From a virus, in the IMG/VR virus record IMGVR_UViG_3300025030_001282, positions 1 through 64,000 of that record: a stretch of 64,000 bases of DNA. One strand, given 5' to 3'. Numbering within the stretch: position 1 is the first letter of the stretch; each line of letters opens with the position of its first letter. A program made the position numbers and the translations under genes. Below are positions 27,081 through 50,547 of this stretch, in pieces. The notes beneath the pieces were generated by a model, which ran no database searches, was not told the DNA's origin, and saw only the letters and a list, made by a program, of their open reading frames with translations.

Positions 27081-27112
27081 TTGCGGTATTGGCTGGCAAA
27101 GCCTTACCGCAA
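27081..27112 (+). other. Leader hairpin overlapping the portal ribosome binding site
   Basis: TTGCGGTA (27081-27088) pairs with TACCGCAA (27105-27112), with an inner GGCT/AGCC helix. The 3' arm ends within AAGGAG, so folding would restrict access to the ribosome binding site of the portal gene. Confidence 0.55.
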
Positions 27113-27121
27113 GGAGCATTC

Positions 27122-28849
27122 ATGTTGAAACATAGCCTTTCCCTCCAGGGATTGTTTGAAGAATCGATGCAGATGCCGTCGGGGCTGATCGTCCCCAAGC
27201 ACTCGGCCACCGACTTCATCAAGTCACAAGCCAAGGAATTGCGCAAAGAGGAGAACAAGGCCCAATTTTTCTCCAAGTTCGCCCTCGCCCAAAACATGGT
27301 GTCTTACGGAGCCCGCGAAAAGCCCGCAGGCACCCCCATGATGCCCCTCCTCTACGAAGCCGCTGAAAAATCGTTTATCGACGCCATCCTGATCCGCGCC
27401 CGCGTTGACCAGATGAAACGCATCTGGCAGAAGGCCAATAGCGGCAAGGCCAAAGAGGTCGGATTCCGCGTAGTCCACGACCGCCACGACGATCCGGACT
27501 ACAAGGGGAGCAAGAACGACGACGAGCGCTGCAGGGAGATGGAGAAGCTGATCGCCAACCCCACGCCCGCCGAGTACAGCGAGCTGTACCCCCACCAGAT
27601 CAGGCCCCACACCGGCATCAAAGACTTTGTATCCGTCTGCACCAAAGCCGAACTGATCATAGACCGGAAGGTTATGCTGCGCTACAAGCGCCGCGACGGC
27701 CAGGGCTATGCCGCCTACCACTGGCTCCCCGGCGAGACGATCAAGCCCGTGGACGAGAGCCTGAGAGCCTGGGCGAAGAAGAACGAAAAGGACGGGAAGG
27801 TCACCGCCGCCAGCATCGAGAAAATGAGCTACGCGACCGGCTTCGACCTCGCCCGCTCGGCATACGTGCAGCTCGTGGACGGTATGATCGTGGGAGCCTA
27901 CACCGACGAGGAGATCAGCGTCCACATATCGAACCCCTCCGACCGGCTCAACCGGTTCGGCTACGGCACCAGCAAACTGGAGCTCTCCCTGGACGTGACC
28001 ACCACGCTGCTGATGGCCTGGACTTATAACAAGGAGATGTTCAAAACCAACTACCCTGAAGCGATCATGACCATCGCGGGGGACTTTGACGCCGAGGGGC
28101 TCCAGGCATTCAAGCAGCAGATGATGAGCGAGGCGGGCGGAGTCGGGAACAACTGGCGGCTGCCGATCATCCCGGCAGGCGAGATGGACAGCTTCAAGCT
28201 GGAAACCCACAAGCTGCGCGACACACCGAAGGACATGCTGTTCGATACCCTTTTCCGCATGCTGGTCATGTTCAAGGCAGCGGCATACGGAGCCCACCCG
28301 AGCACGCTGAACCTGGAGATGGACTCCGGCCAGGGCGGCGGCTCGCTGAATTCCCCGGACCCGGCAAGCGAGATAGAATTCAGCAAGGAACAGGGACTCA
28401 TGCCCGCCCTGGGCGACCTCTGCGATTGGCAGACCGACGCGATCGTGAAGCCGAGGTACGACGACCTGAAGATTGTTATCGTCGGCCTGAATCCCGAGGA
28501 CGAGAAGCAAGCGACGGAAATCCGAGTACAGAAGGTCGGCAAGTGGAAGACGAAGAACGAGGCCAGGATGGAGGAAGGGGACCAACCGCTGGGTTTCTAT
28601 CTCCCCCCCGAGCAGTACAACAAGCTGCAGGAAGGCGACCCGAAGAAGGAGCAGTACGACGCCAACCCGTGGAACTACCCGGCAGACGTCCCTATCCCCA
28701 ACTACCTCAACACCTTCCAGATGCTGGCACAGCCGCAGGATGATGGAGAGGAGGACGACCAGGGCCAGCCAGTCCAGAAGGCGCTGCGCAAGGCCAAGCG
28801 GCCCGCCCCCGTCAAGTTCCTCCACATCGACCTGGAGGACCAGCTGTGA
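27122..28849 (+). CDS. Portal protein
   Basis: 575 aa, ATG 27122 with AAGGAG. The portal forms the dodecameric DNA channel at the head vertex. Seen here: helical N-terminus, a middle with RLNRFGYGTSKLELSLDV followed by TTLLMAWTYNKEMFKTNYPE (the characteristic G-Y-G-x-S-x-x-E segment of portals), and a Gly/Asn-rich loop. The C-terminal tail has VQKALRKAKRPAP, two matches to the hydrophobic-X-Lys-Ala pattern proposed as the prohead protease site. It lies 22 kb from the terminase, an unusual separation. Confidence 0.85.
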   Translation: MLKHSLSLQGLFEESMQMPSGLIVPKHSATDFIKSQAKELRKEENKAQFFSKFALAQNMVSYGAREKPAGTPMMPLLYEAAEKSFIDAILIRARVDQMKRIWQKANSGKAKEVGFRVVHDRHDDPDYKGSKNDDERCREMEKLIANPTPAEYSELYPHQIRPHTGIKDFVSVCTKAELIIDRKVMLRYKRRDGQGYAAYHWLPGETIKPVDESLRAWAKKNEKDGKVTAASIEKMSYATGFDLARSAYVQLVDGMIVGAYTDEEISVHISNPSDRLNRFGYGTSKLELSLDVTTTLLMAWTYNKEMFKTNYPEAIMTIAGDFDAEGLQAFKQQMMSEAGGVGNNWRLPIIPAGEMDSFKLETHKLRDTPKDMLFDTLFRMLVMFKAAAYGAHPSTLNLEMDSGQGGGSLNSPDPASEIEFSKEQGLMPALGDLCDWQTDAIVKPRYDDLKIVIVGLNPEDEKQATEIRVQKVGKWKTKNEARMEEGDQPLGFYLPPEQYNKLQEGDPKKEQYDANPWNYPADVPIPNYLNTFQMLAQPQDDGEEDDQGQPVQKALRKAKRPAPVKFLHIDLEDQL

Positions 28850-33324: not shown

Positions 33325-33570
33325 ATGAGTGCTACCATCAGCCATAACCTGGACGACGAGGAGCTGATCAAGGCCCTCGCCGCCCTGGCCGACGACTCCG
33401 GAATAAGCGAGGAGCTGCAGAAGGCCATCAGACGGAAGGCCTGCGACGACGAGCCGAAGGAGCCCAGGCACCCGGCTATGCGGCACCTGTACCGCCTGTT
33501 CCTGCGACAGCACCAGGAGGCCCTGCGGGATATCGAGCGCTACGCGCAGCAGATCATGGAGGAACAGTGA
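33325..33570 (+). CDS. Hypothetical helical protein, 81 aa
   Basis: ATG 33325. Helical, charged: LDDEELIKALAALADDSG, ELQKAIRRKACDD and a terminal ALRDIERYAQQIMEEQ. LQKA fits the proposed protease pattern. GC-rich codons resume here. GTGA overlap with the next gene. Confidence 0.55.
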   Translation: MSATISHNLDDEELIKALAALADDSGISEELQKAIRRKACDDEPKEPRHPAMRHLYRLFLRQHQEALRDIERYAQQIMEEQ

Positions 33571-36611: not shown

Positions 36612-38207
36612 CTATGCGGCCAGCCCAATTTTGATCTGTGATCCGCCGTTCAAAACAGCAAATAGCGGTTTCTTAGCTTCCTTGTCGTAAGAGACGGCAC
36701 CCTCGAAGGCCTGAGCGACAGACTGCGCCTCGCAGGTGAGTTCGCGGAAAGGCTTCGTGCCATAGTCTTGCGGCAACCAACCCTTGCCCCGGCAAGCCAC
36801 GACGTTGAAGCGGCGCAGAATATCTTCATTCCTGAAGGTCAGGTGGATGGTGCCCTTTTTGTGCGCTGTGGCCTTGAAGTAGGTACTTTCCACGCCGGAG
36901 CTAACGCCAACGGCAAAGGATTTGCGGAGCGCATCAGAGATAGAAACGTATCCGGCCATGCCATCGAAGTAGTTCATAACCTTGTCGATATCGTCGAGAA
37001 CCTCGGCAGCCTTGTAATCCAGTTGCAAGCCGCTGTAGCCATAGAACGGATTGCCGTAACTGGCCCGGATCGGCACAATGACGCGGCGACCGACCTTGAA
37101 AGCCTTGTTGGTTTTCCAGCCATTGAAGTAGTGGATGTTCTTCTGCCACAGGCCATCATCCCAGCAGTGCCGCACTGTGAACATGTCGAAGACATCAAGC
37201 ACCGCTTCAGTCAGCGTTTGCTCATAGCCACCGATCAGGTTCATGACGAATTGCCGGATATTGCTTTCGGTGAAGTCCATGAAGCAGCGATCCGTCAGGG
37301 CGTGTTCGAACTCCGCCTGCTTCTTTGCGGTCAACCGGCTTTTCACATCTTTAAGGTCAAGCGTGCGACGCCAGAAGTCGACACGCACCGATCGCAGCAG
37401 CAGGTTCACTGCGTGCTGCAATTTCCCCGTGAGGTCTTCCGCAGAGCGCCCACCTTGTTGCCGCCCCCCCACGTCGTTCAACGTGAGGTATTTTCCGATG
37501 TGCCGATAGTTGCGGTAAAAGCCGGTAATCGTTTCCATCCCCACTTGCACAGCGCGGTTATATTCCAGGACCAGTTCCGAAATCGTGCGGCCATTGGACA
37601 CTTCATGCTTTTCAGTGAAGGCAGCCTTCGACTCCTGAGCGATATCTTCAGCGCCAGCAAAAAGGTCATCTTCCACACGGCGGTCGATCACGATGCTGAC
37701 CAGGGCCACCTCAACGTCCGTGCGACGCTCTGCCAGTGAAAACCCGTTAGCAATGTATTCGATGCTGGCTCCGCATTCGTCCAGACGCCGGACTAAGAGC
37801 TTTCGGCTGCTGGTATGCGGATTCCGAAGGGTCTCCGCGTTGAGGAGGAAAATAATCTGCCCCCGATACATAATGTCGAGAGCCTTGAGCAGATGCTGTT
37901 CCCCGTTTTCGAAGGGAGGATTGGCAATGATCAGGTCGAATTTATCCGGGCCGGAGTAGGCCAGGAAATCGGAATCGATCAGCTTGAAGGACTTGCCACG
38001 GAGGGTGGCTTGTAGTTCGGGGTCGCTTTCGATGGCGAAAATGTCGTCAGCAGAAAAACGCCGAGTGTGCGATGAAAGAAGCGCTTCAATGAGGTCACCC
38101 TTGCCAGCGGACGGCTCTAGAACCTTGACAGGGTGACCTTTGATTTTGCAGATCATGCGGGAGGCCAGGGAAACCGGAGTAGGGAAAAATGATTTGTTGC
38201 TTAACAC
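36612..38207 (-). CDS. N6-adenine DNA methyltransferase with DUF4942-like C-terminus
   Basis: 531 aa, GTG start with CAGGAG 7 bp upstream. VLEPSAGKGDLIEAL is SAM-binding motif I and DLIIANPPF the catalytic NPPF motif IV of gamma-type adenine methylases, with a target-recognition-like region following. The C-terminal ~330 residues (SELVLEYNRAVQVGMETITG, DRCFMDFTESNIRQFVMNL, GRRVIVPIRASYGN) resemble DUF4942, commonly fused to phage methylases. Likely protects DNA from host restriction. Upstream gap of 66 bp has no clear promoter. Confidence 0.85.
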   Translation of the reverse strand: MLSNKSFFPTPVSLASRMICKIKGHPVKVLEPSAGKGDLIEALLSSHTRRFSADDIFAIESDPELQATLRGKSFKLIDSDFLAYSGPDKFDLIIANPPFENGEQHLLKALDIMYRGQIIFLLNAETLRNPHTSSRKLLVRRLDECGASIEYIANGFSLAERRTDVEVALVSIVIDRRVEDDLFAGAEDIAQESKAAFTEKHEVSNGRTISELVLEYNRAVQVGMETITGFYRNYRHIGKYLTLNDVGGRQQGGRSAEDLTGKLQHAVNLLLRSVRVDFWRRTLDLKDVKSRLTAKKQAEFEHALTDRCFMDFTESNIRQFVMNLIGGYEQTLTEAVLDVFDMFTVRHCWDDGLWQKNIHYFNGWKTNKAFKVGRRVIVPIRASYGNPFYGYSGLQLDYKAAEVLDDIDKVMNYFDGMAGYVSISDALRKSFAVGVSSGVESTYFKATAHKKGTIHLTFRNEDILRRFNVVACRGKGWLPQDYGTKPFRELTCEAQSVAQAFEGAVSYDKEAKKPLFAVLNGGSQIKIGLAA

Positions 38208-38821: not shown

Positions 38822-41800
38822 ATGCTGTACCTGCTGCTGCGCAAGAGCCAAATGGCCTTCGATTGGAACAAACCTGCCGAGAAGTCGGAACATACCGCCG
38901 AGCCCCACCACAAGGCATACGACCGAGTGACGGCCAGCGGCAAGCTGGTCCACGTCGAAGCCAAAGGCCCGCAGACCGAGGCACGCGAGAAGCTGGACCA
39001 CGGCATGAAGATCATGTACCGGACGCCGGAGATGCCTCGCCGCCGCAAGGGAACCATCACCGGCAGCGACGAATCCGGCTGGCATGTGACCGGGCAGCGT
39101 CAGGGCAACGTACTGAAGCCCTCCCAGCACGTCCTCCCCCGCGAGCAGATATGGACCATCCCGGAGCACGAGGCGGACCGGGCACCGAAGGGCACCCACG
39201 TAGCCGTCAGCGGGCACGGGCGCGTGCTGAAGCCAGAGATTGTCCGGGAACGGGCAGAGAAGGGATACGCCCGCCTGGGAATCACCGAAGACAAAGTGCT
39301 GACCCACCCCGAAGTGCTGCGCGTCATGAAAAACTCGCTGAACAAGCTCGCCAGGACCAATTCGATGATTATCGAGCCAGGGTTTAACGTGCAGAACGGC
39401 ATGATCGTGAACGATTCGCCGGAGTCGATGGACGCCTACGAAGCCTTCATGGACAGCCTGTTCAACAGCTTCCGCAGGCAGACCGCCCAGGCCCCCGACG
39501 AGATGGTGGACGAATTCCGCGACCACCTGATGGGGAAACGCGACAACAGCCGCATATTCTGGACCGGGATCCAGGACGGCGAGACGGCGGCGCTGCGCTA
39601 CGTGAAGAAGCGGAAACTGGAGCACCATACCCACGAGGAATTCAACACCTCTGCCGAAGGAGACTTCGAAGCCGGTATGCGGGAGATATCGAGCGAGACG
39701 GCGACCGCCCACCACGAGGATTCCGACCTGAAGCGCCGCATCGACCGTGACAACGCGATCGAGGGAGCCCTGGCCGAGATGCACCCGAAGGCTGCCGAGC
39801 TGCTGCGCCGCCATTTCGGCCTGGGCGATTACCAAGAGCCTCAGTCCACCGCAGCCATCGCCCGCGAGATGGGGACCACGAAGGAGAAGGTAGAAAAGGC
39901 GCTCACCCTGTCGCTGCAGGCCTTCGCCGCCACCAAGGGAAGCTCCGCCCTGCGGGAGTTTCTTAAATCGTTGCGGGAGGAACTGGATTTCAGAAAGGCC
40001 ATTGTCTACGAGGAGGAGCTGCAGAAGAGCCACATCAAGCAGTACGCCCGCATGGACGGCATCGTGGTGCAAGAGCACCAGGACAAGCGCATCGCCAAGC
40101 ACCCCGACCTGATCGCCCACGAGAACGCCCACGGCGACAAGGTACACACCGGAGCCGACCTGAAGCACGGCGCGGACCTCCAGGAGCACCTGAAGAGCCG
40201 AGGCTGGAAGCAGAAGGAAGTTTCCGCCGTGCGCAAGAAGGACGGAGCGAAGGTCGGCAAGAAGGAGGACATGCCGGAGCCGTCCGCGATCAAGGGGAAG
40301 AACCAGGAGAACTCCGCGCTGCAATCCGCACAGCGGACCATCCAGAAGATGCACGAAGCCGTGAAGAACGGCAGCGACCCGGTGGCCAGCCTGCAGGCGA
40401 TCAACACCAGCCGTGGCAACCCGTACCTCGCCGCCGTGGACGACGAGAAAAAGAAGCTCTTCGAGCACTTCGGCCATGAAACCGACGACAGCGAGAAGCA
40501 GCAGAAGTTCGACAAGGACGGGCACACGGTGATTTTGGCCGACGACGGCAAGAAGGTGGCCTTCGCCGGAGGCGATATCGAGGCGAAGGGGAATAAACCG
40601 GTGGGCTCCCTCACCGGCAAGAAGGAGGTCGAGAGCACCGATACCGGGAAGAAGCAGCCGAAGTTCATCACCGGGCGGCCCAACACGGCCTACACCGCGA
40701 AGATGAACGAGGTGAAGAGCAACTACGCCCTGGTCGAGGCGCACGACCTGACCGCCAGCCACACCATCCAGGGGCACGTGAACAAGGCATACCCCCAGGA
40801 GATCCAGCCCAGGGAGCGCGAGCGCGTTTCCAGCCAAATGCAGATGGCAAACATCATGAACGACCTGAAGCCCGAGCTGTTCGGCCACAGCGCCACCGCC
40901 TCCGATGGTGCGCCGATCGTGGGCAAGGACGGAGCGGTCGAATCCGGCAACGGGCGCACCATCGCACTTTCCGAGGCCTACAACAGGGGCCTCGCCGACA
41001 AATACAAGGAATGGCTCAAGGGGGAAGCCGAGCATTTCGGCCTGAAGCCCGAGGACGTGGAAGGGATGAAAAGCCCCATGCTGGTCCGGGTCCGGGACGA
41101 GGCGGACGGTAACAAGGACCGCGCCGAGTTCGCCCGCGAGGCAAACCAGAGCTCAAACCTGGGCAGCTCCCCCGCAGAGCAGGCCTGGACGGACGCCGAC
41201 CGCATCGACGACAGCCTGCTGAAGAAGTTCACCGCCGACGAGGACGGCGAAATCTACAACGACGACAACATGCCCTTCATCACCGCGTTCCTGGGGAAGC
41301 TGGGCAAGAACGAAGCGGCGAGCTTGCAGGACGCCGACGGCGAGCCGAACAAGAAATGCATCGAGCGGATACAGAACGCAGTGTTCGCCAAGGTGTACGG
41401 CAGCTCGGTCCTTACCGAGTTCCAGGCCGAGAGCGCCAAGCCGCGCATCAGGAACGTGCTGAAGGCGCTGAACGCCTGCGTCGGAGACTTCGCCCAGGTG
41501 AAAGGGCACGACGACCTGGACGTGATACCGGACATGATGGAGGCGATCGAGTACACCCTTTCCCACCAGAGCGTGAGCCGAGCGGAGATGGAGCACACGC
41601 TAAAGAACGCCGGAGCCCTAAACTTCACCGGGGACACGCCGACGTTCAAGACGGACTTTGCGGTCAACATGATCCTCGCCATCACCGACCGCACCGGATC
41701 CAGGAACCGGCTGCAGAACGTGTTCAAGGCCATCAGCAACGAGATAAAGACCGAGGTGGCCAGCAGGGAGAACCCGGAGGTGGACATGTTTTCTGGACCG

Positions 41801-44800
41801 GCGCAGCCGAAGACTAAAGAACAGGTGGTCAAGACCGCCCTGGAGAAGCAGGAGCGCCAGGAGATGCAGAAATCAGTAACGAGCGGGGCCTTTTTATTTA
41901 GAAAGGCACACGGAGGAGCACATGGCCGAGTTATCGGAAGAAGAAAAGTACAAGCGCAAGCAGGCGCTGCTGACGCGGGCGCTCGGGACGGCGGACAAAC
42001 TGGACGCGGAGGACGCGAAGAAGGAAGCCTCCGAAAAGGACAAAGCGAAGAAGCAGCGGGCAGAAAAGACGCAGGCCCGGCAGGAGGAGAAGGAGCAGGA
42101 AAAGGAGAAGGCCAAGAAGGACGCCGAGCCGGTTCTTGGCTGATCAAGGCCCACGTCGTAGCCTACAACCGCACCACCCACTCCGGGGCACTGGCCCAGG
42201 TACTGTCGCACGAAGACAGCCGGGTGAGCGGATACGGCGCAAAGCTGGCCAAGGTGAAGAACCCGAGCGACCTGCACAAGCTGCGCACGGAGCGCTTCGG
42301 ACACCTCCCCCATTGGGGCAGGCTCGACGACCAGACGCGCCAGCACGTGCTGAACGCCGAGGACCACATCCATGACAGGCTCAAGGCCGAGGACTTCCAC
42401 AAGAAGCTGAAGACCGCCATCTCCGAGCACCCTGCGATGGATACCATCGACCGGAGCGGCTGGGGCCAGACCCGGCTCTTCAAGGCGCTGCTGCAGAAGT
42501 CGATGGGGAAGACCATCTGCTTTGACTTTGACGGCGTGATCGCCGATTACAGCGACGGCTTTCAAGGCGTCGACGTTTTCGGCCAGCCGATCGAGGGAGC
42601 CTCCAAAACCCTGCACGAGCTGCACGACGCCGGAGTGAAGATCATCATATTCACCACCCGCCAGGACACCCCCGCGCTCCGGGCCTACCTTGAGCAGAAC
42701 AGCATCCCATTCGACGAGATCAACAGGAACAGCGACCAGCCGGACCACACCAACGAGGGCAAGCCCATCGCCGACGCCTATGTGGACGACCGAGCCGTCA
42801 GGTTCGTGAACTGGCCCCTGGCAGCCGCTATGCTGGACCACACGCTGCGCAAGAGCGTGATGCACCCGGCAATGATCCTGCGGAAAAGCCAGATGTCGCT
42901 CTTCGATTGGGTACCGCCCAAGCACGAGGAGGAGCGGACGGTACACGCGACCACCCGGCATCTTGCATCCGGCGCGGCGGTCGCAGTGAAGCAGCACGAG
43001 CGTAAGGTCCAGGTGGCGGAGAAGCCGAAGCCCGGAGGCACCAGCCTGAAGCACACGGACGAGAATTACCGCTACAAGGACGTGGGCCACGTCCCAGGGA
43101 GCCGGAAGGAGCTGGCAGCCGAGCAGGCCACCATGATCAAGCAGCGGGCAAAGACCGGCGCAGGCGTAGATTACCGGGAAGTGAATTGGGACGCCCTCGA
43201 GGAGAACCCGCGTGAGGCCTACGACCTGATCACGAAGGACTCGATCGCCAAGGAGGTGGATTGGGAGGCCATCAAAGCCAGCGGAGTGGAGCCCGGCGCA
43301 GGCTTCCTGATGTACAAGCTCTACGCTGCCGTGGCACCCAAGCCGGAAGACAGCCCCCAGGCGAGGAAGGACTTTGTGTTCGGCATCAACGCCCTGCAGG
43401 AGCGTTTCACCGATTGCAGGACCACCCCGGAGGTGATCGCCAAGATTCGGGAAATATCGGAGGAAATGACCGGCTTCACCATGAACCCGGAGCAGCAGAA
43501 GGAGTGGGAGCGCCTGGAGGCAGCATACCGCGAACCGGCGCAGACCGCCCGGAGGTTAAGCAAGGAGCACGACGCGGTATGGAACGCCTACTACAAGCCG
43601 AGCCAGCGGCTGCAGAACCTTAAATGGGACCAGGAGAAGCGGGTCCGGCGCGGCTGGAAAAAGGATCCCGAACTGGAAGCACAGATCGAGGCCCTGCAGA
43701 AAGACGTCGACGCACTGTATCAGGTGGATCAGGCGTGGAGAGCCGCCAACCAAGCGGCTACGGAGCAGGCCGACAAGGCATCCACTGCCGCCTGGAAGGA
43801 ACAGAGGGCCTTCAAGGAAAACGTGATCAACATCAACATCCTGACCCACCCGCTTACCAGAGGCTGGAACAGCTTCGGCAAGAAGTTCTTCAACGCCATC
43901 AACTACAGCAGCTACAAAGGCTCCGATGCCTTCGGCACGCACGTGGCCACCGCCAGGAGCGGCAAGGTTCAGAATTGGGACTGGCTGGAGAAAGACACCA
44001 AGCCCAGGGCGGCCAGCAAGACCTCTGTGCAGTTCCAGTTGAAGGTAGCGGAGAACGTGGAGCGCATCGGCGGTGCTCCCTTGCCCAAAGCCGACTACGG
44101 CACCGACGACATCAAGAGGGAATTTAACCTCGCCAACGTGCAAAGCGGCAACTGGGTACTGAAAGACCTGAACGCAGCGAAACACCACACTGAGCAGTGC
44201 GCTATGGCCTTCCAGGACATGGCGGATATCCTGGGCATCCCCAGCAGCGAGATCAGCATGAACGGACGCCTCTCGGTCGCCTTCGGTGCCAGGGGGAGCG
44301 GCGGAGTGTTCGGGCCGGGAGCTGCCGCCCACTACGAGAACAAGTACCGGGTGATCAACCTGACCAAGATGAAGGGCGGCGGAAGCCTCGCCCACGAGTG
44401 GCTGCACTTCCTGGACGACGTGGCAGGAGAGATCGAAACCGGAGAACGAAAAGGGCGCGAAACCTATGCAACCGATTCCGCGCCGACCACCCCGGTCCTG
44501 CAGGCGTTCAAGGATCTGGCCTTCGAGATGGAGAACGGCGGCCACAACGAGTCGATCAAAATCAAGGTCACCATCACCGAGGCGGAGAAGGAGCACTGGC
44601 TGCAAAGAGTGGAACGGGCACGTAAGAGCAACTTCTACGGGGCACCGACCATCCACATGATCGCCACAGCCAAAGACCTATCCGAGGCAGTGCAGGGCGC
44701 ATTCGACGCCATGACCGCAGGCAAGTTCGGAGCCGTGGGCGGCCACAAGGCCAAGAAGCAGTACGAGCTTTACCGGGAAATGGCCGTGGCAGTCCATGCG

Positions 44801-45217
44801 GGCACCGAGGGCACCTACGATGCTATCGGATTTAAGACCGGCAGCAAGTACTACGTCGAGTCCCAGAAGATCGACGCGGGCACGAAGGGAAGTGGCTACT
44901 GGCAGAGCCGAAAGGAAATGGCGGCCCGAGCCTTCGCCGCCTACGTCAGCGACAAGCTGCACGAGCGCAAGCGGGAGAACACCTACCTGACCAGCTACGC
45001 CGACAACAAGTACTATGTGCTGGAGGGGATCAAGCCCTACCCCGAAGGAGAAGAGCGGACCCGCATCAACGCCGCCTTTGACAAGCTGTTCGCCACGATC
45101 AAGACGAGCGGCACCCTGCAGAAGGCCATGCAGAATTATGGCCGCGACCAGGGACGGCAGGAAACCGCCCGCCGCGTAGCGTACCTCATCCGCAAAAGAG
45201 GAGCGCAGGCATGCTGA
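38822..45217 (+). CDS. Polyvalent protein (ParB-like, HAD and metallopeptidase domains), 2131 aa
   Basis: Multi-domain protein of the 'polyvalent' type carried in phage heads and injected to act in the host (compare P1 DarB). Domains in order: residues ~315-375 sigma-region-4-like HTH (HFGLGDYQEPQSTAAIARE); ~493-550 domain shared with the 136-aa gene; ~617-970 DdrB-type ParB-like (ESGNGRTIALSEAY, FAREANQSSN); ~1031-1106 Gly/Arg-rich linker that reads like an unused frame; ~1228-1330 HAD phosphatase (ICFDFDGVIAD, YVDDRAVRF); ~1763-2100 LPD1-type metallopeptidase (SLAHEWLHFLDD, an HExxH site). Lys-Ser/Ala motifs (LRKS, LQKS, LQKA) stand at the joints, including directly before the HAD Met, suggesting proteolytic release. 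A start at the linker end is possible, so it may be two genes. Confidence 0.75.
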   Translation: MLYLLLRKSQMAFDWNKPAEKSEHTAEPHHKAYDRVTASGKLVHVEAKGPQTEAREKLDHGMKIMYRTPEMPRRRKGTITGSDESGWHVTGQRQGNVLKPSQHVLPREQIWTIPEHEADRAPKGTHVAVSGHGRVLKPEIVRERAEKGYARLGITEDKVLTHPEVLRVMKNSLNKLARTNSMIIEPGFNVQNGMIVNDSPESMDAYEAFMDSLFNSFRRQTAQAPDEMVDEFRDHLMGKRDNSRIFWTGIQDGETAALRYVKKRKLEHHTHEEFNTSAEGDFEAGMREISSETATAHHEDSDLKRRIDRDNAIEGALAEMHPKAAELLRRHFGLGDYQEPQSTAAIAREMGTTKEKVEKALTLSLQAFAATKGSSALREFLKSLREELDFRKAIVYEEELQKSHIKQYARMDGIVVQEHQDKRIAKHPDLIAHENAHGDKVHTGADLKHGADLQEHLKSRGWKQKEVSAVRKKDGAKVGKKEDMPEPSAIKGKNQENSALQSAQRTIQKMHEAVKNGSDPVASLQAINTSRGNPYLAAVDDEKKKLFEHFGHETDDSEKQQKFDKDGHTVILADDGKKVAFAGGDIEAKGNKPVGSLTGKKEVESTDTGKKQPKFITGRPNTAYTAKMNEVKSNYALVEAHDLTASHTIQGHVNKAYPQEIQPRERERVSSQMQMANIMNDLKPELFGHSATASDGAPIVGKDGAVESGNGRTIALSEAYNRGLADKYKEWLKGEAEHFGLKPEDVEGMKSPMLVRVRDEADGNKDRAEFAREANQSSNLGSSPAEQAWTDADRIDDSLLKKFTADEDGEIYNDDNMPFITAFLGKLGKNEAASLQDADGEPNKKCIERIQNAVFAKVYGSSVLTEFQAESAKPRIRNVLKALNACVGDFAQVKGHDDLDVIPDMMEAIEYTLSHQSVSRAEMEHTLKNAGALNFTGDTPTFKTDFAVNMILAITDRTGSRNRLQNVFKAISNEIKTEVASRENPEVDMFSGPAQPKTKEQVVKTALEKQERQEMQKSVTSGAFLFRKAHGGAHGRVIGRRKVQAQAGAADAGARDGGQTGRGGREEGSLRKGQSEEAAGRKDAGPAGGEGAGKGEGQEGRRAGSWLIKAHVVAYNRTTHSGALAQVLSHEDSRVSGYGAKLAKVKNPSDLHKLRTERFGHLPHWGRLDDQTRQHVLNAEDHIHDRLKAEDFHKKLKTAISEHPAMDTIDRSGWGQTRLFKALLQKSMGKTICFDFDGVIADYSDGFQGVDVFGQPIEGASKTLHELHDAGVKIIIFTTRQDTPALRAYLEQNSIPFDEINRNSDQPDHTNEGKPIADAYVDDRAVRFVNWPLAAAMLDHTLRKSVMHPAMILRKSQMSLFDWVPPKHEEERTVHATTRHLASGAAVAVKQHERKVQVAEKPKPGGTSLKHTDENYRYKDVGHVPGSRKELAAEQATMIKQRAKTGAGVDYREVNWDALEENPREAYDLITKDSIAKEVDWEAIKASGVEPGAGFLMYKLYAAVAPKPEDSPQARKDFVFGINALQERFTDCRTTPEVIAKIREISEEMTGFTMNPEQQKEWERLEAAYREPAQTARRLSKEHDAVWNAYYKPSQRLQNLKWDQEKRVRRGWKKDPELEAQIEALQKDVDALYQVDQAWRAANQAATEQADKASTAAWKEQRAFKENVININILTHPLTRGWNSFGKKFFNAINYSSYKGSDAFGTHVATARSGKVQNWDWLEKDTKPRAASKTSVQFQLKVAENVERIGGAPLPKADYGTDDIKREFNLANVQSGNWVLKDLNAAKHHTEQCAMAFQDMADILGIPSSEISMNGRLSVAFGARGSGGVFGPGAAAHYENKYRVINLTKMKGGGSLAHEWLHFLDDVAGEIETGERKGRETYATDSAPTTPVLQAFKDLAFEMENGGHNESIKIKVTITEAEKEHWLQRVERARKSNFYGAPTIHMIATAKDLSEAVQGAFDAMTAGKFGAVGGHKAKKQYELYREMAVAVHAGTEGTYDAIGFKTGSKYYVESQKIDAGTKGSGYWQSRKEMAARAFAAYVSDKLHERKRENTYLTSYADNKYYVLEGIKPYPEGEERTRINAAFDKLFATIKTSGTLQKAMQNYGRDQGRQETARRVAYLIRKRGAQAC
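41922..42143 (+). CDS. Small charged protein nested out of frame, 73 aa
   Basis: ATG 41922 has GGAGGAG upstream and lies in the +1 frame of the polyvalent gene. Its codons have the G/C-rich third positions of the window, whereas the polyvalent frame in the same stretch has many A-ending codons and Gly/Arg-rich text. The product is Lys/Glu/Ala-rich and helical (AELSEEEKYKRKQALLTRAL), like a small scaffold. It is bracketed by FRKA and LIKA motifs of the long frame. Its stop overlaps a CTG from which the second half of the polyvalent frame could restart. Confidence 0.55.
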   Translation: MAELSEEEKYKRKQALLTRALGTADKLDAEDAKKEASEKDKAKKQRAEKTQARQEEKEQEKEKAKKDAEPVLG

Positions 45218-46167
45218 TACTTTTAAAGAAAAAGCACGCATTGCGTGCAGAAACGATGCAAAAGGCGCGAAAGCTTGACGGACGCATAAACTTCAACGGC
45301 CTGGAGGTGTCGATCGAGACAGGGCGCTCCCGTTGCCGGGTCTGGTACGACCCGCACAACAAGAGCGAGGGCATGTCCCGGATGGCGCTCCCCTACGGTT
45401 ACATCAAGGGGACGCTGGGCACCGACGGGGACCACGTGGACGTGTTCGTCGGCCCGGACCACAGCGCCCCCGAGGTCTACGTGATCCACACCACGAAGGC
45501 CCCCGACTTCACTGAGTACGACGAGGACAAATGCGTCCTGGGAGTAGGAAGCCCCGAGGCGGCCCAGCGGGCATTCTCCGCGAGCTACAGCGACCCGCAG
45601 TTTTACGGCGGCATGAGCATCTGGCCTTTCGAGGAATTCAAGGCGCACGTGCTATCGAGCGAGGCCAAGGGGCAGCCCCTGCGGAAGTCCGGAGAGGAGT
45701 ACTGCAAGAAGCTCGGGGACCAGCTGGGCATCGATTGGAAGCAGGTAGACCTGGATGCATTCTGCGACGGCATGTTCGAGGAGGACGGCAAGCACGGAAG
45801 CATCGCGGGAGCCGCTAGGGTAGTGATCGCCAACCTGAAGAAAGACCCGCACTGCTACTCCGGGGAGAGCAAGAGCGGCAGGCTGCAGAAGGCGCTCTTC
45901 ACCGTCGCGGAAATCCGGGAACGTGCCCAGAAGGCATATCGGGAGGCCTGCACCGCTGCAGGCGGCAACTGGAACGATCTGAACCCGGAGGAGTTCTACC
46001 AGGGGATGAAGGAGGAGATGGAGCACCGGGACGTGACAGGAGGTGATCTGGTCCTGACCGCCAAGATCGTCCTCGCCCACCTGCGGGAAGACGCGAGCTA
46101 TTACAGCAAGCTTGAAAGACTGCAGAAGGCTAGGAAGACCCGACTTCTTGCCGGTGCCTACTGGTAA
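45211..46167 (+). CDS. Inorganic-pyrophosphatase-like domain plus two DUF5661 repeats, 318 aa
   Basis: ATG 45211 with GAGGAG, overlapping the polyvalent stop. Residues ~25-145 (ALPYGYIKGTLGTDGDHVDV, FVGPDHSAPEVYVIHTT, EDKCVLGVGSPEAAQRAF) match the InPase-like domain found in phage polyvalent proteins. Two DUF5661 units follow: EEYCKKLGDQLGIDWKQVDL ... RVVIANLKKDPHCYSGE and NWNDLNPEEFYQGMKEEMEH ... LTAKIVLAHLREDASYY. LRKS, LQKA and LQKA motifs precede each unit and the tail, so it too may be processed. Confidence 0.75.
   Translation: MLILLKKKHALRAETMQKARKLDGRINFNGLEVSIETGRSRCRVWYDPHNKSEGMSRMALPYGYIKGTLGTDGDHVDVFVGPDHSAPEVYVIHTTKAPDFTEYDEDKCVLGVGSPEAAQRAFSASYSDPQFYGGMSIWPFEEFKAHVLSSEAKGQPLRKSGEEYCKKLGDQLGIDWKQVDLDAFCDGMFEEDGKHGSIAGAARVVIANLKKDPHCYSGESKSGRLQKALFTVAEIRERAQKAYREACTAAGGNWNDLNPEEFYQGMKEEMEHRDVTGGDLVLTAKIVLAHLREDASYYSKLERLQKARKTRLLAGAYW
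45234..45248 (+). repeat. Palindromic hairpin element, copy B
   Basis: GCACGC-ATT-GCGTGC followed by AGAAACGATGCAAAAGG, close to copy A at 18762-18776. Here it lies in the first codons of the InPase-like gene. Confidence 0.45.
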
Positions 46168-46170
46168 CGG

Positions 46171-46485
46171 GTGGGCCACGACAGGGATAGCATAACCCAG
46201 CACGCCTGGGACCGTTTTCTGGAAAGGTGGGAAGGCAGACGCCCAGCCTGCTGGCGCAAAGAACTGTACCGCCTGATCGAGACATCGGTTTTCGAAGACC
46301 TGGGGCATGGGCAAGTTGTCCGGCTGATTAACCACGGATATCAGCCAGCGGTTTACCTCACCACAGAAGGCTGGCGCTTTGTGGTGGACAAGACCTCCGG
46401 GATACTGCTGACATGCGAACGAGCGTATAAAAGGGCGAAGGCCCGAGCGCCCAAGGGGATCAGCCGGAAGAGGTGCGGGCGATAA
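46171..46485 (+). CDS. Hypothetical protein, 104 aa
   Basis: GTG 46171, three bases after the preceding stop; the ribosome binding site is weak. ITQHAWDRFLERWEG begins a phage family of unknown function, followed by LINHGYQPAVYLTTEGWRFV, a strand pair like those of small toxin/RelE folds. The C-terminus is basic (RAYKRAKARAPKGISRKRCG). It ends in a bidirectional terminator shared with the convergent ASCH gene. Confidence 0.6.
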   Translation: MGHDRDSITQHAWDRFLERWEGRRPACWRKELYRLIETSVFEDLGHGQVVRLINHGYQPAVYLTTEGWRFVVDKTSGILLTCERAYKRAKARAPKGISRKRCGR

Positions 46486-46525
46486 AGGGAAGGGGGGAGG
46501 CGCTGTCTCCTCTCCCCTTCCCTTT
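46484..46525. terminator. Bidirectional terminator between convergent genes
   Basis: AAAGGGAAGGGG / CCCCTTCCCTTT, 12-bp stem, with additional inner pairing of GGAG and CTCC; short T-runs on both strands. It joins the stop codons of the plus gene (46485) and the ASCH gene (46525). Confidence 0.8.
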
Positions 46526-46977
46526 CAGATCCTGAAGAACCCCAACTGCCCCTTTAAGGGATAGAAGGGCAGCGGCTTGATATCGCGCAGCACAAAGCCA
46601 TACGGCCCCATGAACCAGGGTGAATCCGACCTGTTGACGCAATCCACGATCTCCGCCTCGCCGATGATACCGCCGCGCTCAATAGTGCCCGCCATGATCT
46701 CCCTGCACCCCTTTTCCCAAGCCTCCGGGCACCGCTGCCGCACCCAATCCCAGGAACCGCGCCACTCGTCCTTCGTCACGCCTTTAGCCGCATGGATCAG
46801 GACGCGGCCCCGCACCTTTGTCCGCCAGGAGCGGTTTTCAATATCTTTGCCAGCATTGACGATAAGCCACGCCCACGGCTGCCGGATGGAAAGGACCAGC
46901 CCGGTCGGAGCGGGACCAGAAGTGATAAGCCCAGCAGCCGACGGCGCGGCTGGGGGGAAGAGACAAAGATCACCCAC
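46525..46977 (-). CDS. ASCH domain protein, 150 aa
   Basis: Minus strand. GTG 46977 is chosen because GTAGGAGGT lies 6 bp upstream; longer frames lack a site. VLSIRQPWAWLIVNAGKDIE, NRSWRTKVRGRVLIHAAKG and GGIIGEAEIVDCV are the core of ASCH domains (PUA-like fold), which bind modified bases or RNA and hydrolyse N4-acetylcytidine in some cases. The first ~30 residues are a Pro/Ala-rich extension. Single gene on its own strand, like a moron. Confidence 0.85.
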   Translation of the reverse strand: MGDLCLFPPAAPSAAGLITSGPAPTGLVLSIRQPWAWLIVNAGKDIENRSWRTKVRGRVLIHAAKGVTKDEWRGSWDWVRQRCPEAWEKGCREIMAGTIERGGIIGEAEIVDCVNRSDSPWFMGPYGFVLRDIKPLPFYPLKGQLGFFRI

Positions 46978-47056
46978 GAGACACCTCCTACACACCAAGA
47001 TACCTACGCGCAAAGAAAGGCCGCCACGGAAAATGATATCGGAAAAGACAAAAAGT

Positions 47057-47085
47057 TTGACCGAGTGAAATTATTGACATACGCT
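47057..47085 (+). promoter_or_regulatory. Possible promoter for the 63-aa gene
   Basis: TTGACC (47057-47062) - 17 bp - TACGCT (47080-47085). The -10 lies inside copy 8 of the 15-bp element, and the start point would be ~2 bp before ATG 47094, giving a leaderless message. Confidence 0.4.
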
Positions 47086-47088
47086 ACA
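47074..47088 (-). promoter_or_regulatory. 15-bp recurrent element, copy 8 (reverse)
   Basis: Reads TTGACATACGCTACA on the plus strand, in the divergent gap between the ASCH gene (minus) and the 63-aa gene. No -10 box lies 17 bp downstream, unlike copies 6, 7 and 11. Confidence 0.6.
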
Positions 47089-47093
47089 GCGAA

Positions 47094-47285
47094 ATGGCCA
47101 AGCCGCGCACAATATACCTGCTTCGCAAAAGCAGCCAGGGCGCAGAAGAGGCGATCCCGGTACTGACCCGAACGGACCTGCCGCTCAGGTTCCACTACAA
47201 GGGCCGGGAAATAAACATAGAGGCAACCCCCAAGGGAAACCTCGTAATCAAAGAGACACGCTTGACAGGGAACAACGGGGAGTAG
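47094..47285 (+). CDS. Small head-region protein, 63 aa
   Basis: ATG 47094 with no Shine-Dalgarno. Begins PRTIYLLRKSSQGAEEAI, where LRKS fits the proposed protease site, so the first ~10 residues may be removed in the head. Basic beta-type rest (LRFHYKGREINIEATPKGN). No family recognised. A terminator follows. Confidence 0.55.
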   Translation: MAKPRTIYLLRKSSQGAEEAIPVLTRTDLPLRFHYKGREINIEATPKGNLVIKETRLTGNNGE

Positions 47286-47314
47286 CCGAAAGGCAAATGA
47301 CCCGTCCAGTTATA

Positions 47315-47347
47315 GGCGACTACCGGTACTACCGGAGTCGCCTTTTT
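47315..47347 (+). terminator. Rho-independent terminator before the protease gene
   Basis: GGCGACT / AGTCGCC with inner CCGG/CCGG pairing, then TTTTT (47343-47347). The protease ATG is only 17 bp downstream, so readthrough or an overlapping promoter is needed for its expression. Confidence 0.75.
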
Positions 47348-47363
47348 GCGTTTGGAGCCCGGA

Positions 47364-48305
47364 ATGGAAGCAGAAGACCAAGTCCTATTTGAATTGCCGG
47401 TGGAACTGGAACTCAGAAAGAGCCAGGGCAGCAGCACGCCGCGCCGCATTCTCCGGGGCTACGCATCCACCGCGAGCAAGGACCAGGACGGCGAAACTGT
47501 TTTGCAGCACGGGATGGACTTTTCCCCGCTCCTGAAATCCGGCTTCATGAACTACGACCACCAGGGCAAGTGCCTGCAATGCCAAGTGGTGTCTGATCGC
47601 CCGGTCTGCCCCAGCTGCGGATCCAGAGCAAAGATGCCGATTATCATCGGCTACCCGCTCAGCGCCGAGATCCGGGACAAGGGATGGTGGCTGGAAAGCG
47701 AAATTTTCAACGGTGCCGCCGCCGTCGACGTCAACAGCGACCAGCTGCGGCTCGCAGACGAAATGTGGGCGCTCGGTATGGCCATGCAGAAATCTGGCGG
47801 TAACAGGAGCCTTGCCTATTCGGTCGAGGGAGGCGTCCTGCAGCGGCACGGCAAGAAGGTGGTTAAGTCCGTGGTCCGGCACTGCGCCGTTACCCACAAG
47901 CCGGTGAACGAGGACGCAAGCGTCGAGCTGTTCATGAAATCCATGTGCTGCGGGCGCTGCAACCCGGATCACATGCTCTACGTGCCCGGCCACAGCTGCG
48001 GAAGCCATGCGGAAGACGAAGTGCAGAAAGCCATGTCCACCGAATCCGCCGCGCCGCTCATGCTGCAGAACCTGGACCGGGGCACCTCGGGGCTCCTGTA
48101 CGGGATGAACCCGACCGCCTGCGGCTGCTGCGATGAAAACTGGAAGTTCAAGAACGGAGTGGTGGGAGCAGCCAACCACCTTCAGAAATGCCAGGGGCTA
48201 TCCAAGGACCAAAGCATATCGTTCCTGCGCAAAGTGATCCATAACGCGCCGCACCGTCCCGACCTTGCGGCGCTCGTCAAACAAGCCGGTCTCATAGGCA
48301 ATTAA
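47364..48305 (+). CDS. Prohead serine protease (S78-like) with zinc-ribbon insertions
   Basis: 313 aa; ATG 47364 (TTG 47346 rejected, it lies in the terminator). RRILRGYASTASKDQDGETV, NYDHQ (catalytic His ~66), GYPLSAEIRDKGWWLESEIF and RSLAYSVEGG (catalytic Ser ~153) follow the HK97 gp4 prohead-protease pattern; a third residue may be His ~173/178. A CLQC...CPSCG ribbon is inserted after the His and a CCGRC cluster follows the protease domain. It carries several LRKS/LLKS/MQKS/VQKA motifs, consistent with self-cleavage. It would trim scaffold and capsid before DNA packaging. Confidence 0.85.
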   Translation: MEAEDQVLFELPVELELRKSQGSSTPRRILRGYASTASKDQDGETVLQHGMDFSPLLKSGFMNYDHQGKCLQCQVVSDRPVCPSCGSRAKMPIIIGYPLSAEIRDKGWWLESEIFNGAAAVDVNSDQLRLADEMWALGMAMQKSGGNRSLAYSVEGGVLQRHGKKVVKSVVRHCAVTHKPVNEDASVELFMKSMCCGRCNPDHMLYVPGHSCGSHAEDEVQKAMSTESAAPLMLQNLDRGTSGLLYGMNPTACGCCDENWKFKNGVVGAANHLQKCQGLSKDQSISFLRKVIHNAPHRPDLAALVKQAGLIGN

Positions 48306-48324
48306 AGAGGGGAGGAATATACGC

Positions 48325-49065
48325 ATGGACGCAAGGGCTAAAGCCAAAAAACAGTACGACGACACGATGGCCGAGCTGGACCTGCTCGAAAAATCGCAGA
48401 AAACCGGCGATGAAGCTACCGACGATCTGGAGGCGCTTACCAAGTCGCTGGAAGCGGAACTTGCAGGGGACGACCCCCTGAAGAAATCCGGGGACAACGA
48501 CGCGGACGACAAGGGCGGCAAAACCGAGGGCGACGAGGAAACCGAGATGGAGAAATCCCTCCGCCTCGCCGCCGAGGAAGAACTCCGCAAAGCCCAGGAA
48601 GCCGAGCAGGAGGAGTACGACGAACTGGTGAAGGCCAGCGAGGCGTATGCAGCTCTCGAGGAGACGATCCAGAAGTCCCACGGCGGGATTCAGGAGCAAC
48701 TTTCGACGCTGTGCAAGAGCATGGCAGCCCTGACCAACCTCAACCTCAAGATGGCCGGTGTGATTACCGCGCAGTCCGGAGAGATCGCCACCCTGAAGAA
48801 GTCCCGCGAAGAGGATCTGGAAACCATCCAGAAATCCGTGGCCACCCTGGGCGGCAGGCCGGTCATGCCGAACACTGCGGTCCTCGGCGTGAAGCTGGTC
48901 GACGGCAAGGAAGAGACGCTGACCAAATCCCTTTCCGAAATCGGCGACGACCTGACCAAGGCAGTCCAGGAAGGCAAGATCGATTCCCGCCACCTCTCGG
49001 TGTGGGGCACCTACAAGGACGTCAACCGGCTGCCCGACGAAGTAAAGACGCTCATCGGCATTTAA
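48325..49065 (+). CDS. Scaffold-like protein rich in Lys-Ser/Ala motifs, 246 aa
   Basis: GGGGAGG upstream. Long, acidic, mostly helical protein between protease and major capsid, the usual place of the scaffold. At least ten matches to hydrophobic-X-Lys-Ser/Ala (LEKS, LTKS, LKKS, MEKS, LRKA, LVKA, IQKS, LCKS, LKKS, IQKS, LTKS, LTKA) are spread along it, which is what a scaffold cut into small peptides by the protease would show. The C-terminal ~50 residues are non-repetitive and may bind the capsid. Confidence 0.8.
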   Translation: MDARAKAKKQYDDTMAELDLLEKSQKTGDEATDDLEALTKSLEAELAGDDPLKKSGDNDADDKGGKTEGDEETEMEKSLRLAAEEELRKAQEAEQEEYDELVKASEAYAALEETIQKSHGGIQEQLSTLCKSMAALTNLNLKMAGVITAQSGEIATLKKSREEDLETIQKSVATLGGRPVMPNTAVLGVKLVDGKEETLTKSLSEIGDDLTKAVQEGKIDSRHLSVWGTYKDVNRLPDEVKTLIGI

Positions 49066-49107
49066 CGGTCTTACAACAGGCCTGCACTCAAAAAGGGAGG
49101 AATTAGC

Positions 49108-50547
49108 GTGGATATCCAGAGTTTTGACATGATGCTGAAAGCAGGCGGATATAGCCTGACCGGGGACCAGATCGTCGACGATCTCCGCAAAGCACTTACC
49201 ACCACCAACAGCGGCCCCGGCGGCATCCAGTCCGGCCCGCTGATGCTGGAGAACCTGGACTCGGTCATGACCGAAGTCCTGATCACTGAGCAGCATTTCA
49301 AGCTGTTCAACAAACTGCCCAAGGTGCCGAGCGCCCAGCCGTACTACGAGTACAACGTCCACAAGGGCTTCGGCTCGAACCGTTCCGGTGGTGCAGGCTT
49401 CCGCCAGGGCGGAGCGCCGAAGGGCGGCACCAGCTCCTTCGAGAGAAAGGGCATCTACAACAAGTTCCTGGGCGTAAAAGGCGGAGTGACCCACCAGATG
49501 CTCATCACCGGGCAGAACGGCGGGAGCTTCGAAGACCCCACGGTCCGCGAAAACCGCGACCGCACCCTGGAGCTGCTGGAGAAGGTCGAGCGTGAACTGA
49601 TGTTCGGCCAGAAAGCCATCCTCGACGAGAACGGCGAGGAAGTAAACTTCGACGGACTGCTGACCCAGCTGCTCGCCGACAACGGCGCGAACGTGATCGA
49701 CATGAAGGGTGCGCCCCTGACCTTCGACGAGCTGGACGACGCCGCCCAGGATCTGATCACGACCGGCAAGCAGCCTTCGGTGAACGGTTACCAGATTCTG
49801 CAGAGCCCGCACGTTTCCAGCGGCCTCAACAAGCAGTTCGGCACCAGGAACCAGGTCCGCTTCAACAAGGACAGCGCCGTGAACGCGAACTACGTCCCCG
49901 GCCAGAGCATCAACAAGTACGATTCGGAGTTCGGCACCTTCGAGTTCGACCACTCCATCCTCCTGCAGGAAGTGGAAGCCGCCGCTCCGGTCGCTGCCGC
50001 GCCCGCCAACGTTCCCGCCACCCCGGCGATCACCACCCAGCCCGCAGCAGCCGACGACGCCGTAGGCAACCACATTGCCGGGACGGTCTACTACTCCATC
50101 GCGGCCTTTAACGATACCGGCGAGAGCCTGCCGGTGATCACCGACGCCGTCGCCATCCCGGACGCTACCAGCAAGGTGACCACCGTCATCACCCGGCTGG
50201 CAGGGGCCACCGGCTACCGCATTTATCGCGGCAAGCTGGCCGACGGCTCCGACCACAAGTGGATTGCCAAGGTGGCACAGAGCACCTCCGGCAACATCAC
50301 CTTCGTGGACAAGAACGGCTGGTTCACCACCGACGCCAACGGCAAGCAGTCCGACGGCCTCGCCCTGATGATCAAGCCCGAGGCCCGCGACATCGCCATC
50401 GCACAGATGACGCCGATGATCAAGATGCCGCTGCCGCAGGAGGGGACCACCTTCCCCTTCCTGCTGCTGCTCTACATCGTCAGCGTGATCAAGGCCCCGG
50501 AAAGGGTCAAGATTTACAAGAACTGCGGCACCTTTACCCCGGCCTAG
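49108..50547 (+). CDS. Major capsid protein with inserted Ig/FN3-like domain
   Basis: 479 aa, GTG start with GGGAGG. N-terminal ~28 residues end in DLRK before ALTTTNSGPGG, a probable protease site. HK97-fold features: the GGIQSGPLMLENLDSVM segment, a large E-loop-like region rich in Gly (GFGSNRSGGAGFRQGG), and the C-terminal LLLYIVSVIKAPERVKIYKN. Residues ~290-407 are an extra module beginning in an Ala/Pro linker (AAPANVPATPAITTQ), with VYYSIAAFNDTGESLP and ATGYRIYRGKLADGSDHKW of FN3/Ig type, likely on the capsid surface. Confidence 0.9.
   Translation: MDIQSFDMMLKAGGYSLTGDQIVDDLRKALTTTNSGPGGIQSGPLMLENLDSVMTEVLITEQHFKLFNKLPKVPSAQPYYEYNVHKGFGSNRSGGAGFRQGGAPKGGTSSFERKGIYNKFLGVKGGVTHQMLITGQNGGSFEDPTVRENRDRTLELLEKVERELMFGQKAILDENGEEVNFDGLLTQLLADNGANVIDMKGAPLTFDELDDAAQDLITTGKQPSVNGYQILQSPHVSSGLNKQFGTRNQVRFNKDSAVNANYVPGQSINKYDSEFGTFEFDHSILLQEVEAAAPVAAAPANVPATPAITTQPAAADDAVGNHIAGTVYYSIAAFNDTGESLPVITDAVAIPDATSKVTTVITRLAGATGYRIYRGKLADGSDHKWIAKVAQSTSGNITFVDKNGWFTTDANGKQSDGLALMIKPEARDIAIAQMTPMIKMPLPQEGTTFPFLLLLYIVSVIKAPERVKIYKNCGTFTPA

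Follow-up and report, generated by a model that had tools for sequence, protein, structure and literature searches.

We analyzed a 64,000-nucleotide stretch of viral DNA (positions 1-64,000 of the 79,914-base IMG/VR virus record IMGVR_UViG_3300025030_001282; hereafter the window), in which genes for a head maturation protease, a scaffold-like protein and the major capsid protein lie downstream of a gene for a 2131-residue polyvalent polyprotein, and in which the short motif [LIMFV]-x-K-[SA] recurs in these proteins. It is likely that the head maturation protease cuts after [L/I/M/F]-x-K and before Ser or Ala, and that it processes the shell, the scaffold and the polyprotein cargo into separate proteins. 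This reading draws on sequence comparisons, namely motif enrichment, positional conservation, equivalence to the deposited capsid cut sites of relatives, and module shuffling at the sites. From them we infer cleavage in this phage, the presence of the polyprotein inside the head, the injection of its parts and the roles of the enzymes in the host. The source virus appears to be an uncultured contractile-tailed phage, and its head module is of the SPO1/Herelleviridae type. Genes were called by a simple codon-composition score over open reading frames (ORFs), without curated annotation, and the motif was counted in each gene and compared with shuffled versions of the same protein. Below, P3 and P1 denote the third and the last residue before a predicted cut (↓), and P1' the residue after it.

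A lysine motif in the head proteins

Compared with composition shuffles, the scaffold-like protein contains 12 motif copies versus 0.91 expected, the protease 6 versus 0.82, a protein with InPase and DUF5661 domains 4 versus 0.87, and the polyprotein 17 versus 6.4 (p≤0.006 in each case). An earlier note on this DNA had proposed comparing motif density across all encoded proteins, and the comparison sets the head region apart: its seven genes together hold 43 copies versus 10.4 expected (500 shuffles, maximum 20), and the remaining 76 genes hold 47 versus 33.5, which is near expectation. A leader site is present in six of the seven head-region genes versus 0.66 expected. All of the motif sites listed in that note exist, some of them 1-3 bases from the positions it gave: LRKS at residues 6-9, LQKS at 42491-42502 before the HAD domain, LRKS at 42845 and 42878 and LQKA at residue 2099 of the polyprotein; LRKS at 45679, LQKA at 45883 and LQKA at 46120 in the DUF5661 protein; LRKS in a 63-residue protein (residue 10) and in the protease (residue 23); the 12 scaffold copies; LRKA at residues 26-29 of the capsid; and VQKA562 and LRKA566 in the portal.

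To examine the code without a preset motif, we scanned the scaffolds of the window and seven related phages (n=8; the phages are related, so the counts are not independent events). When all 20 residues were placed at P1 between a hydrophobic P3 and Ser/Ala at P1', Lys was observed 95 times versus 7.9 expected, and no other residue was clearly enriched in these scaffolds. At P1', Ser (62 versus 3.2) and Ala (33 versus 4.7) were enriched and the other residues were not, while P3 was Leu, Met, Ile or Phe and scarcely Val. Hydrophobic-x-K-[SA] also ranked first among all three-position reduced-alphabet patterns tried on the eight scaffolds. The T4-type alternative with Glu at P1, hydrophobic-x-E-[SA], was observed 8 times versus 11.8 expected, which agrees with the earlier proposal that Lys takes the place of Glu here.

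The motif also fills the scaffolds of SPO1-type phages, with 10-14 copies in SPO1, Goe10 and Exig132 and 6-8 copies in 812, Twort, BS1, BSP15, LysYB1, Riverwalk, Mecenats66 and PHB04. In Mecenats66, all six scaffold sites have Met at P3, as do the capsid (MMKS), the leader of the protease (MLKA), the tail of the portal (MFKA) and the large helicase at its N-terminus (MIKA); in 812 and Twort, Val takes this position in the capsid and at most of the scaffold sites. P3 shifts in step across the proteins of a single phage.

The deposited capsid N-termini of relatives bear directly on the predicted cut. The window capsid aligns with SPO1 gp6.1 and with the capsid of the Staphylococcus 812 type. For Listeria phage A511, the deposited mat_peptide (GenBank X91069) begins at codon 24, DALK↓SFTTGY; the capsid chain of PDB entries 9row/9rox/9roz (439 residues) equals the 463-residue 5lii chain minus its first 24 residues, VVK↓SFQTGYG, and phage 812 encodes an identical VVKS at residues 22-25 of its capsid. 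Both cut sites, which come from depositors' PDB chain and GenBank feature records rather than from cleavage assays, match LRK↓A of the window capsid column for column. Moreover, in an alignment of 15 capsids with 18-80% identity to that of the window, K28 is the sole invariant residue besides Met1 within the first 49 residues, and the next residue is always Ser or Ala; the Riverwalk capsid, outside this alignment, has VIKG at the K28 site. By analogy with the A511 and 812-type N-termini, Herelleviridae-type proteases would cut after Lys and before Ser/Ala, in line with the Lys-directed cutting that the earlier note had put forward. N-terminal sequencing of phiEF24C proved to concern another protein.

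These observations make it extremely improbable that the motif is a structural or compositional trait of a coiled-coil scaffold and of linkers, with a heptad-like L-x-K-S, rather than a protease site. The scaffolds are indeed Lys-rich and likely helical, and they show a further enrichment of hydrophobic residues 5-6 positions ahead of K[SA]. However, enrichment is confined to Lys at P1 and to Ser/Ala at P1', single sites are conserved in other proteins (capsid K28, the 63-residue protein and the InPase leaders), and the mature A511 and 812-type capsids begin exactly after the motif.

The protease itself matches the head maturation protease profile phrog_1028 (E=4.7e-33), as the earlier assignment of a capsid-maturation protease would require, and tblastn against SPO1-like phages gave 1e-25, with about 33-35% identity over the core to the SPO1-type procapsid protease. 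His72 and Ser159 are invariant in 13 divergent proteases from phages of Gram-positive hosts (Herelleviridae) and from Bacteroides, Morganella and Bordetella phages. Lys25, within the N-terminal LRK↓S, is nearly invariant in the same set, which fits autocleavage. The protease sequence had no match in the PDB. Its structural model (predicted local distance difference test, pLDDT, 63) gave T4 gp21 (5jbl) as the best PDB match (prob 0.97-0.99, E about 2e-3, low TM-score), and prohead proteases were the best hits in a viral structure library (E down to 1e-9). As a separate observation, a CxxC...CxxC insertion (residues about 75-92) soon after the catalytic-type His is shared by the window protease and four relatives and is absent in four others; the proteases with the insertion also have a Cys-rich C-terminal region (residues about 200-285) that SPO1-type proteases do not show.

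Polyprotein modules and their boundaries

The polyprotein contains polyvalent-type domains, namely ddrB-ParB (1.9e-35), LPD1 (9.2e-21) and a HAD-type domain, and the neighbouring protein contains InPase (4.5e-27), so that the ParB-like and pyrophosphatase-like parts named earlier are recovered. The "sigma-like" label for module 1 found no such support: a Pfam search at E≤1 and a PDB search with a 5-sequence profile both returned nothing for the module, and a sigma factor was therefore dropped as a candidate. The predicted main products are 42, 68, 13, 13 and 84 kDa. A search of genome contigs with the window capsid returned no relatives. Homologues of the polyprotein come from four related loci (L001, L002, L003 and L009), with parts in L008; L002 and L003 are near-duplicates, as are L004 and L008.

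Module order differs among these phages. The window has module 1, ddrB/ParB, a 112-residue module, HAD and metallopeptidase/LPD1, whereas in relatives HAD lies between module 1 and the ParB module. The 16 rearrangement edges lie on average 3.1 residues from the nearest site versus 100 for circularly shifted sites (p=5e-5, the limit of 20,000 shifts), and every edge is within 7 residues of a site. Because L003 nearly duplicates L002, edges were picked from BLAST blocks of the window, L001, L002 and L009 only; with edges chosen by hand, breakpoints shared among related phages and BLAST ends possibly attracted to conserved sites, the p value is optimistic.

Equivalent ends point the same way. Among L001, L002, L003 and L009, the leader diverges while the LxK↓SQ(M/L)xxFD-type N-terminus is conserved: the ORFs of L002, L003 and L009 start with a divergent leader of 17-24 residues ending in L-x-K and followed by SQ(M/L)(S/N)LF(D/N)Y, and L001 has ILTK↓SQMSLFDW at residue 40. 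The window polyprotein has LRK↓SQMAFDW after 8 residues and LRK↓SQMSLFDW internally at residue 1355. A purine-rich GGGGGAA precedes the polyprotein ATG (38822); at the internal SQMSLFDW start no ribosome-binding site is visible in the DNA, unlike at the starts 38822 and 45211, and for module 3 no start codon of its own with a ribosome-binding site was seen. The SQMSLFDW mature N-terminus would accordingly arise in two ways, near the ORF start in relatives and inside the polyprotein in the window. Similarly, (L/M)-x-K-(A/S) precedes InPase whether the domain is ORF-initial (window, L002 and L008) or ORF-internal (L001 and L009). In L008, InPase and topoisomerase IB are set apart by sites, and sites also flank an ART domain located behind an SNF2 helicase; L008 further encodes an equivalent module as a separate gene with its own leader site.

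In addition, an element of about 35 residues, SHV-x-x-Y-x-R...G...V...H-x-D-x-R-x-K, gave 13 matches above 40 bits in the window and its relatives, all of which begin exactly at P1', and no strong match without a site was found in these sequences. The profile was built from ten stretches. Ten of the matches are seeds, chosen after sites, and the others are closely homologous; what carries information is therefore that no strong match appeared elsewhere.

On the proposed pathway, the precursor would be recruited into the prohead as one chain via the short leader MLYLLLRK. The protease, activated on assembly, would remove its own N-terminus, trim residues 1-28 from the capsid and destroy the scaffold at about 12 sites; it would also process a set of cargo proteins encoded just upstream. 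Cuts at the polyprotein junctions would yield module 1, ddrB/ParB, the 112-residue module, the HAD phosphatase and metallopeptidase/LPD1; small products would exit, and the modules would stay as separate proteins and be ejected with the DNA. Packaging is suggested by the position of these genes next to the head module, by their leaders, and by analogy with DdrB of phage P1, a homologue of the ParB module that is found in virions (PMC9024508).

Several points weigh against this pathway or narrow it. A host trypsin-like enzyme is a conceivable alternative cutter in the window phage. Neither the capsid (3 motif copies versus 1.1 expected) nor the portal (4 versus 1.9) is enriched alone, so the case for these two proteins rests on site position. 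The scaffolds of P100 and A511 show no significant enrichment, yet Lys precedes the cut in the A511 capsid; the P3 rule therefore looks looser in these phages. Within the polyprotein, VNKA653 lies inside the ddrB-ParB domain, and VLKA879 and VFKA967 inside a conserved block around it; several such V-x-K copies within conserved domains are probably not cut. The earlier claim that the protease liberates the enzymes is supported by the rearrangements in relatives, which break at sites. BLAST block edges may be pulled towards conserved sites. Finally, the model of a polyprotein fragment (1091 residues, 9 alignment rows) is too poor for domain boundaries (mean pLDDT 50); all ten sites examined fall in stretches below pLDDT 50, but so do 60% of all residues, and because of this exposure of the sites in linkers is only weakly indicated.

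The chief competing explanation accepts the code for capsid, scaffold, protease and leaders and holds that internal polyprotein sites are rarely or never used, so that the long chain is packaged and then injected whole after leader removal, as has been supposed for DarB-type proteins of phage P1. The polyprotein has a motif density of 2.7 times expectation versus 13 times in the scaffold, and DdrB was detected in P1 virions and listed at 109 kDa (PMC9024508). Large proteins of cultured relatives (PHB04 gp25 and gp27, Mecenats66 ORF61) likewise have an N-terminal site and no overall enrichment, and full fragmentation may for this reason be confined to the window's own group. Nevertheless, we regard whole-chain injection as unlikely here: internal sites coincide with module rearrangement edges, SQMSLFDW stands behind an ORF-start leader in relatives and also at an internal site without a visible ribosome-binding site, the 35-residue element starts exactly at P1' of internal sites, and an equivalent module in L008 is a separate gene with its own leader site.

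Self-processing of the polyprotein by its embedded zincin-type metallopeptidase, with LxK[SA] as shared linker composition, is very improbable. Module 5 does contain HEWLH, and such processing of polyvalent proteins was proposed by Iyer et al. 2017 (PMC5512222). Against it, the same code occurs in scaffold and capsid, which are substrates of the head protease; SPO1-type phages have the code without this polyprotein in the head module; and the cut N-termini deposited for capsids fall at sites that correspond to the motif.

Relation to known head proteases and polyvalent proteins

Cutting of the polyprotein by the head protease can be set beside several known systems. The SPO1-type (Herelleviridae) module (protease gp3.2, scaffold gp3.3 and capsid gp6.1; also A511 Cps and the 812 capsid) has a homologous protease and a capsid of about 25% identity, the same protease-scaffold-capsid order, the same repeats in scaffold and protease, and a capsid site at the same alignment column. 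Unlike that module, the window has its portal about 20 kb away, belongs to a record of 80 kb versus 130-160 kb, has extra Cys-rich protease stretches, and extends the code to a large polyvalent polyprotein upstream of the protease.

As with T4 gp21 and phiKZ/SPN3US gp245, a head protease with a short P3-x-P1 code would cut shell and ejected cargo and remove short N-terminal targeting leaders. In T4, phiKZ and SPN3US, prohead proteases are known to act on ejected proteins, with Glu rather than Lys at P1 (PMC5694885, PMC10052503); the SPN3US cargo loses N-terminal propeptides and, unlike the cargo proposed here, is not described as split into separate enzymes.

In HK97 gp5, residues 103/104, the established cleavage position, read FNK↓S and fit hydrophobic-x-K↓S; unlike the window, HK97 gp4/gp5 has neither a separate scaffold nor a cargo polyprotein. 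Phage P1 gp23 has MLE↓S at its Edman-determined N-terminus (PMC9024508). Together these two sites indicate that families differ in the charge of the residue at P1, with a hydrophobic P3 and Ser at P1' recurring.

The polyprotein resembles the polyvalent proteins of Iyer et al. (2017) and the Dar proteins of phage P1 in carrying ddrB-ParB, LPD1, InPase, zincin-type and ART-PolyVal (L008) domains on large injected-type proteins. Polyvalent proteins have been proposed to be processed by embedded metallopeptidases, some having C-terminal assemblin-like domains (PMC5512222); what differs here is a separately encoded head protease with a readable code. In the openly accessible literature (most subscription papers lay outside the search), we found no description of a Lys↓Ser/Ala code common to capsid, scaffold and polyvalent polyprotein, or of module-by-module release by a head protease. 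The Lys code itself is not new, as the SPO1-like head module has it and HK97 gp5 FNK↓S too; new here is that a polyvalent polyprotein, cut by a Lys code, would join the head cargo known to undergo prohead proteolysis.

The strategy of polyprotein cleavage is better known from animal RNA viruses. We lean slightly towards a general head-cargo cassette, in which a leader or linker that is short and divergent precedes a hydrophobic-x-K↓[S/A] site, often followed by the ~35-residue element; any enzyme behind such a cassette would be loaded within a polyprotein, released when the capsid protease cuts, and ejected. On this view the polyprotein would be a true phage equivalent of RNA-virus polyproteins, recombination at cut sites would shuffle it, and the motif would serve to predict ejected proteins wherever a phage has an SPO1-type head. 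Such a code would make mature ends and probable ejected proteins predictable in a large, medically used group (Herelleviridae-type heads) and its uncultured relatives. It may also answer the open question of how multi-enzyme polyvalent chains of more than 2,000 residues enter the head and exit a narrow tail. Release of modules by the capsid protease would couple cutting to head maturation and let evolution exchange effectors through recombination at cut sites; a practical cargo-loading tag is also suggested.

Feature coordinates and other candidates

Table 1. Head-region genes, polyprotein modules and predicted cut sites in the window
Feature	Coordinates	Strand	Remarks
Portal protein	27089..28849	+	two candidate C-terminal sites, VQK↓A (562) and LRK↓A (566), residues 562-569
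Polyvalent polyprotein, 2131 residues	38822..45217	+	main cuts predicted after K8, K382/392/402, K1017/1028, K1109, K1221/1226, K1344/1355, K2101
N-terminal leader MLYLLLRK, 8 residues	38822..38845	+	predicted capsid-targeting/propeptide, removed at LRK↓S
Module 1, 374 residues, 42 kDa	38846..39967	+	
Module 2, 615 residues, 68 kDa	40028..41872	+	ddrB-ParB domain (PF18763); begins SHIKQYARMDG directly after LQK↓S
Nested +1-frame gene, 73 residues	41922..42143	+	Lys/Glu-rich; GGAGGAG ribosome-binding site; conserved in 4 relatives
Module 3, 112 residues	42149..42484	+	begins AHVVAYNRTT directly after LIK↓A
HAD-hydrolase module, 118 residues	42500..42853	+	flanked by LQK↓S and LRK↓S
Module 5, 746 residues, 84 kDa	42887..45124	+	SQMSLFDW start after internal LRK↓S; HEWLH zincin-type motif; LPD1 domain
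318-residue protein	45211..46167	+	leader ending MQK↓A, InPase domain, LRK↓S, LQK↓A, DUF5661, LQK↓A
63-residue protein	47094..47285	+	LLRK↓S leader site (LRKS at residue 10) in all orthologues read (8 loci, including near-duplicates L002/L003 and L004/L008)
Head maturation protease	47346..48305	+	phrog_1028; H72 and S159 invariant; N-terminal LRK25↓S; six motif copies
Scaffold-like protein	48325..49065	+	12 predicted cut sites
Major capsid protein (SU10_MCP / phrog_752)	49108..50547	+	mature N-terminus predicted at LRK28↓A29

Besides the proteins in Table 1, large proteins of Bordetella phage PHB04 (of helicase, methyltransferase and InPase type) start with short leaders ending in FLK↓A, LTK↓A and LLK↓A. 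The ddrB-ParB proteins of ABMM1 and JK004 show little or no enrichment and serve as a loose negative control, the protease status of both phages having been partly checked. An 81-residue protein at 33325-33570 contains two motif copies, LIKA14 and LQKA31 (p=0.006), and is possibly a further processed or head-cargo protein.

The nested gene recurs out of frame inside the polyprotein ORF of relatives (L001:6717-6875, L002:4757-4957, L003:4757-4957 and L009:3757-3963). Its product of 52-73 residues (MAELSEEEKYKRK...) is rich in Lys, Glu and Ala, and its ribosome-binding site is purine-rich. Third-codon GC switches to the nested-gene frame, yet the polyprotein frame stays open across it in all five phages, for which the joint chance is about 1e-4 or 5e-5 if the phages are independent; two of them are near-duplicates.

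Beside the polyprotein gene, on the minus strand, a DUF4942/methyltransferase gene without a leader site (36612-38207) matches methyltransferase parts of other phages' large proteins in PHROGs, which suggests fusion or fission of the same modules. Outside the window, in the remaining 16 kb of the record, which was read as locus L015, a reverse transcriptase-like gene at about 69.7-72.5 kb (L015:9669-12487) follows a sulfatase-modifying/C-type-lectin-like gene, and the pair, judged by eye, resembles a diversity-generating retroelement.

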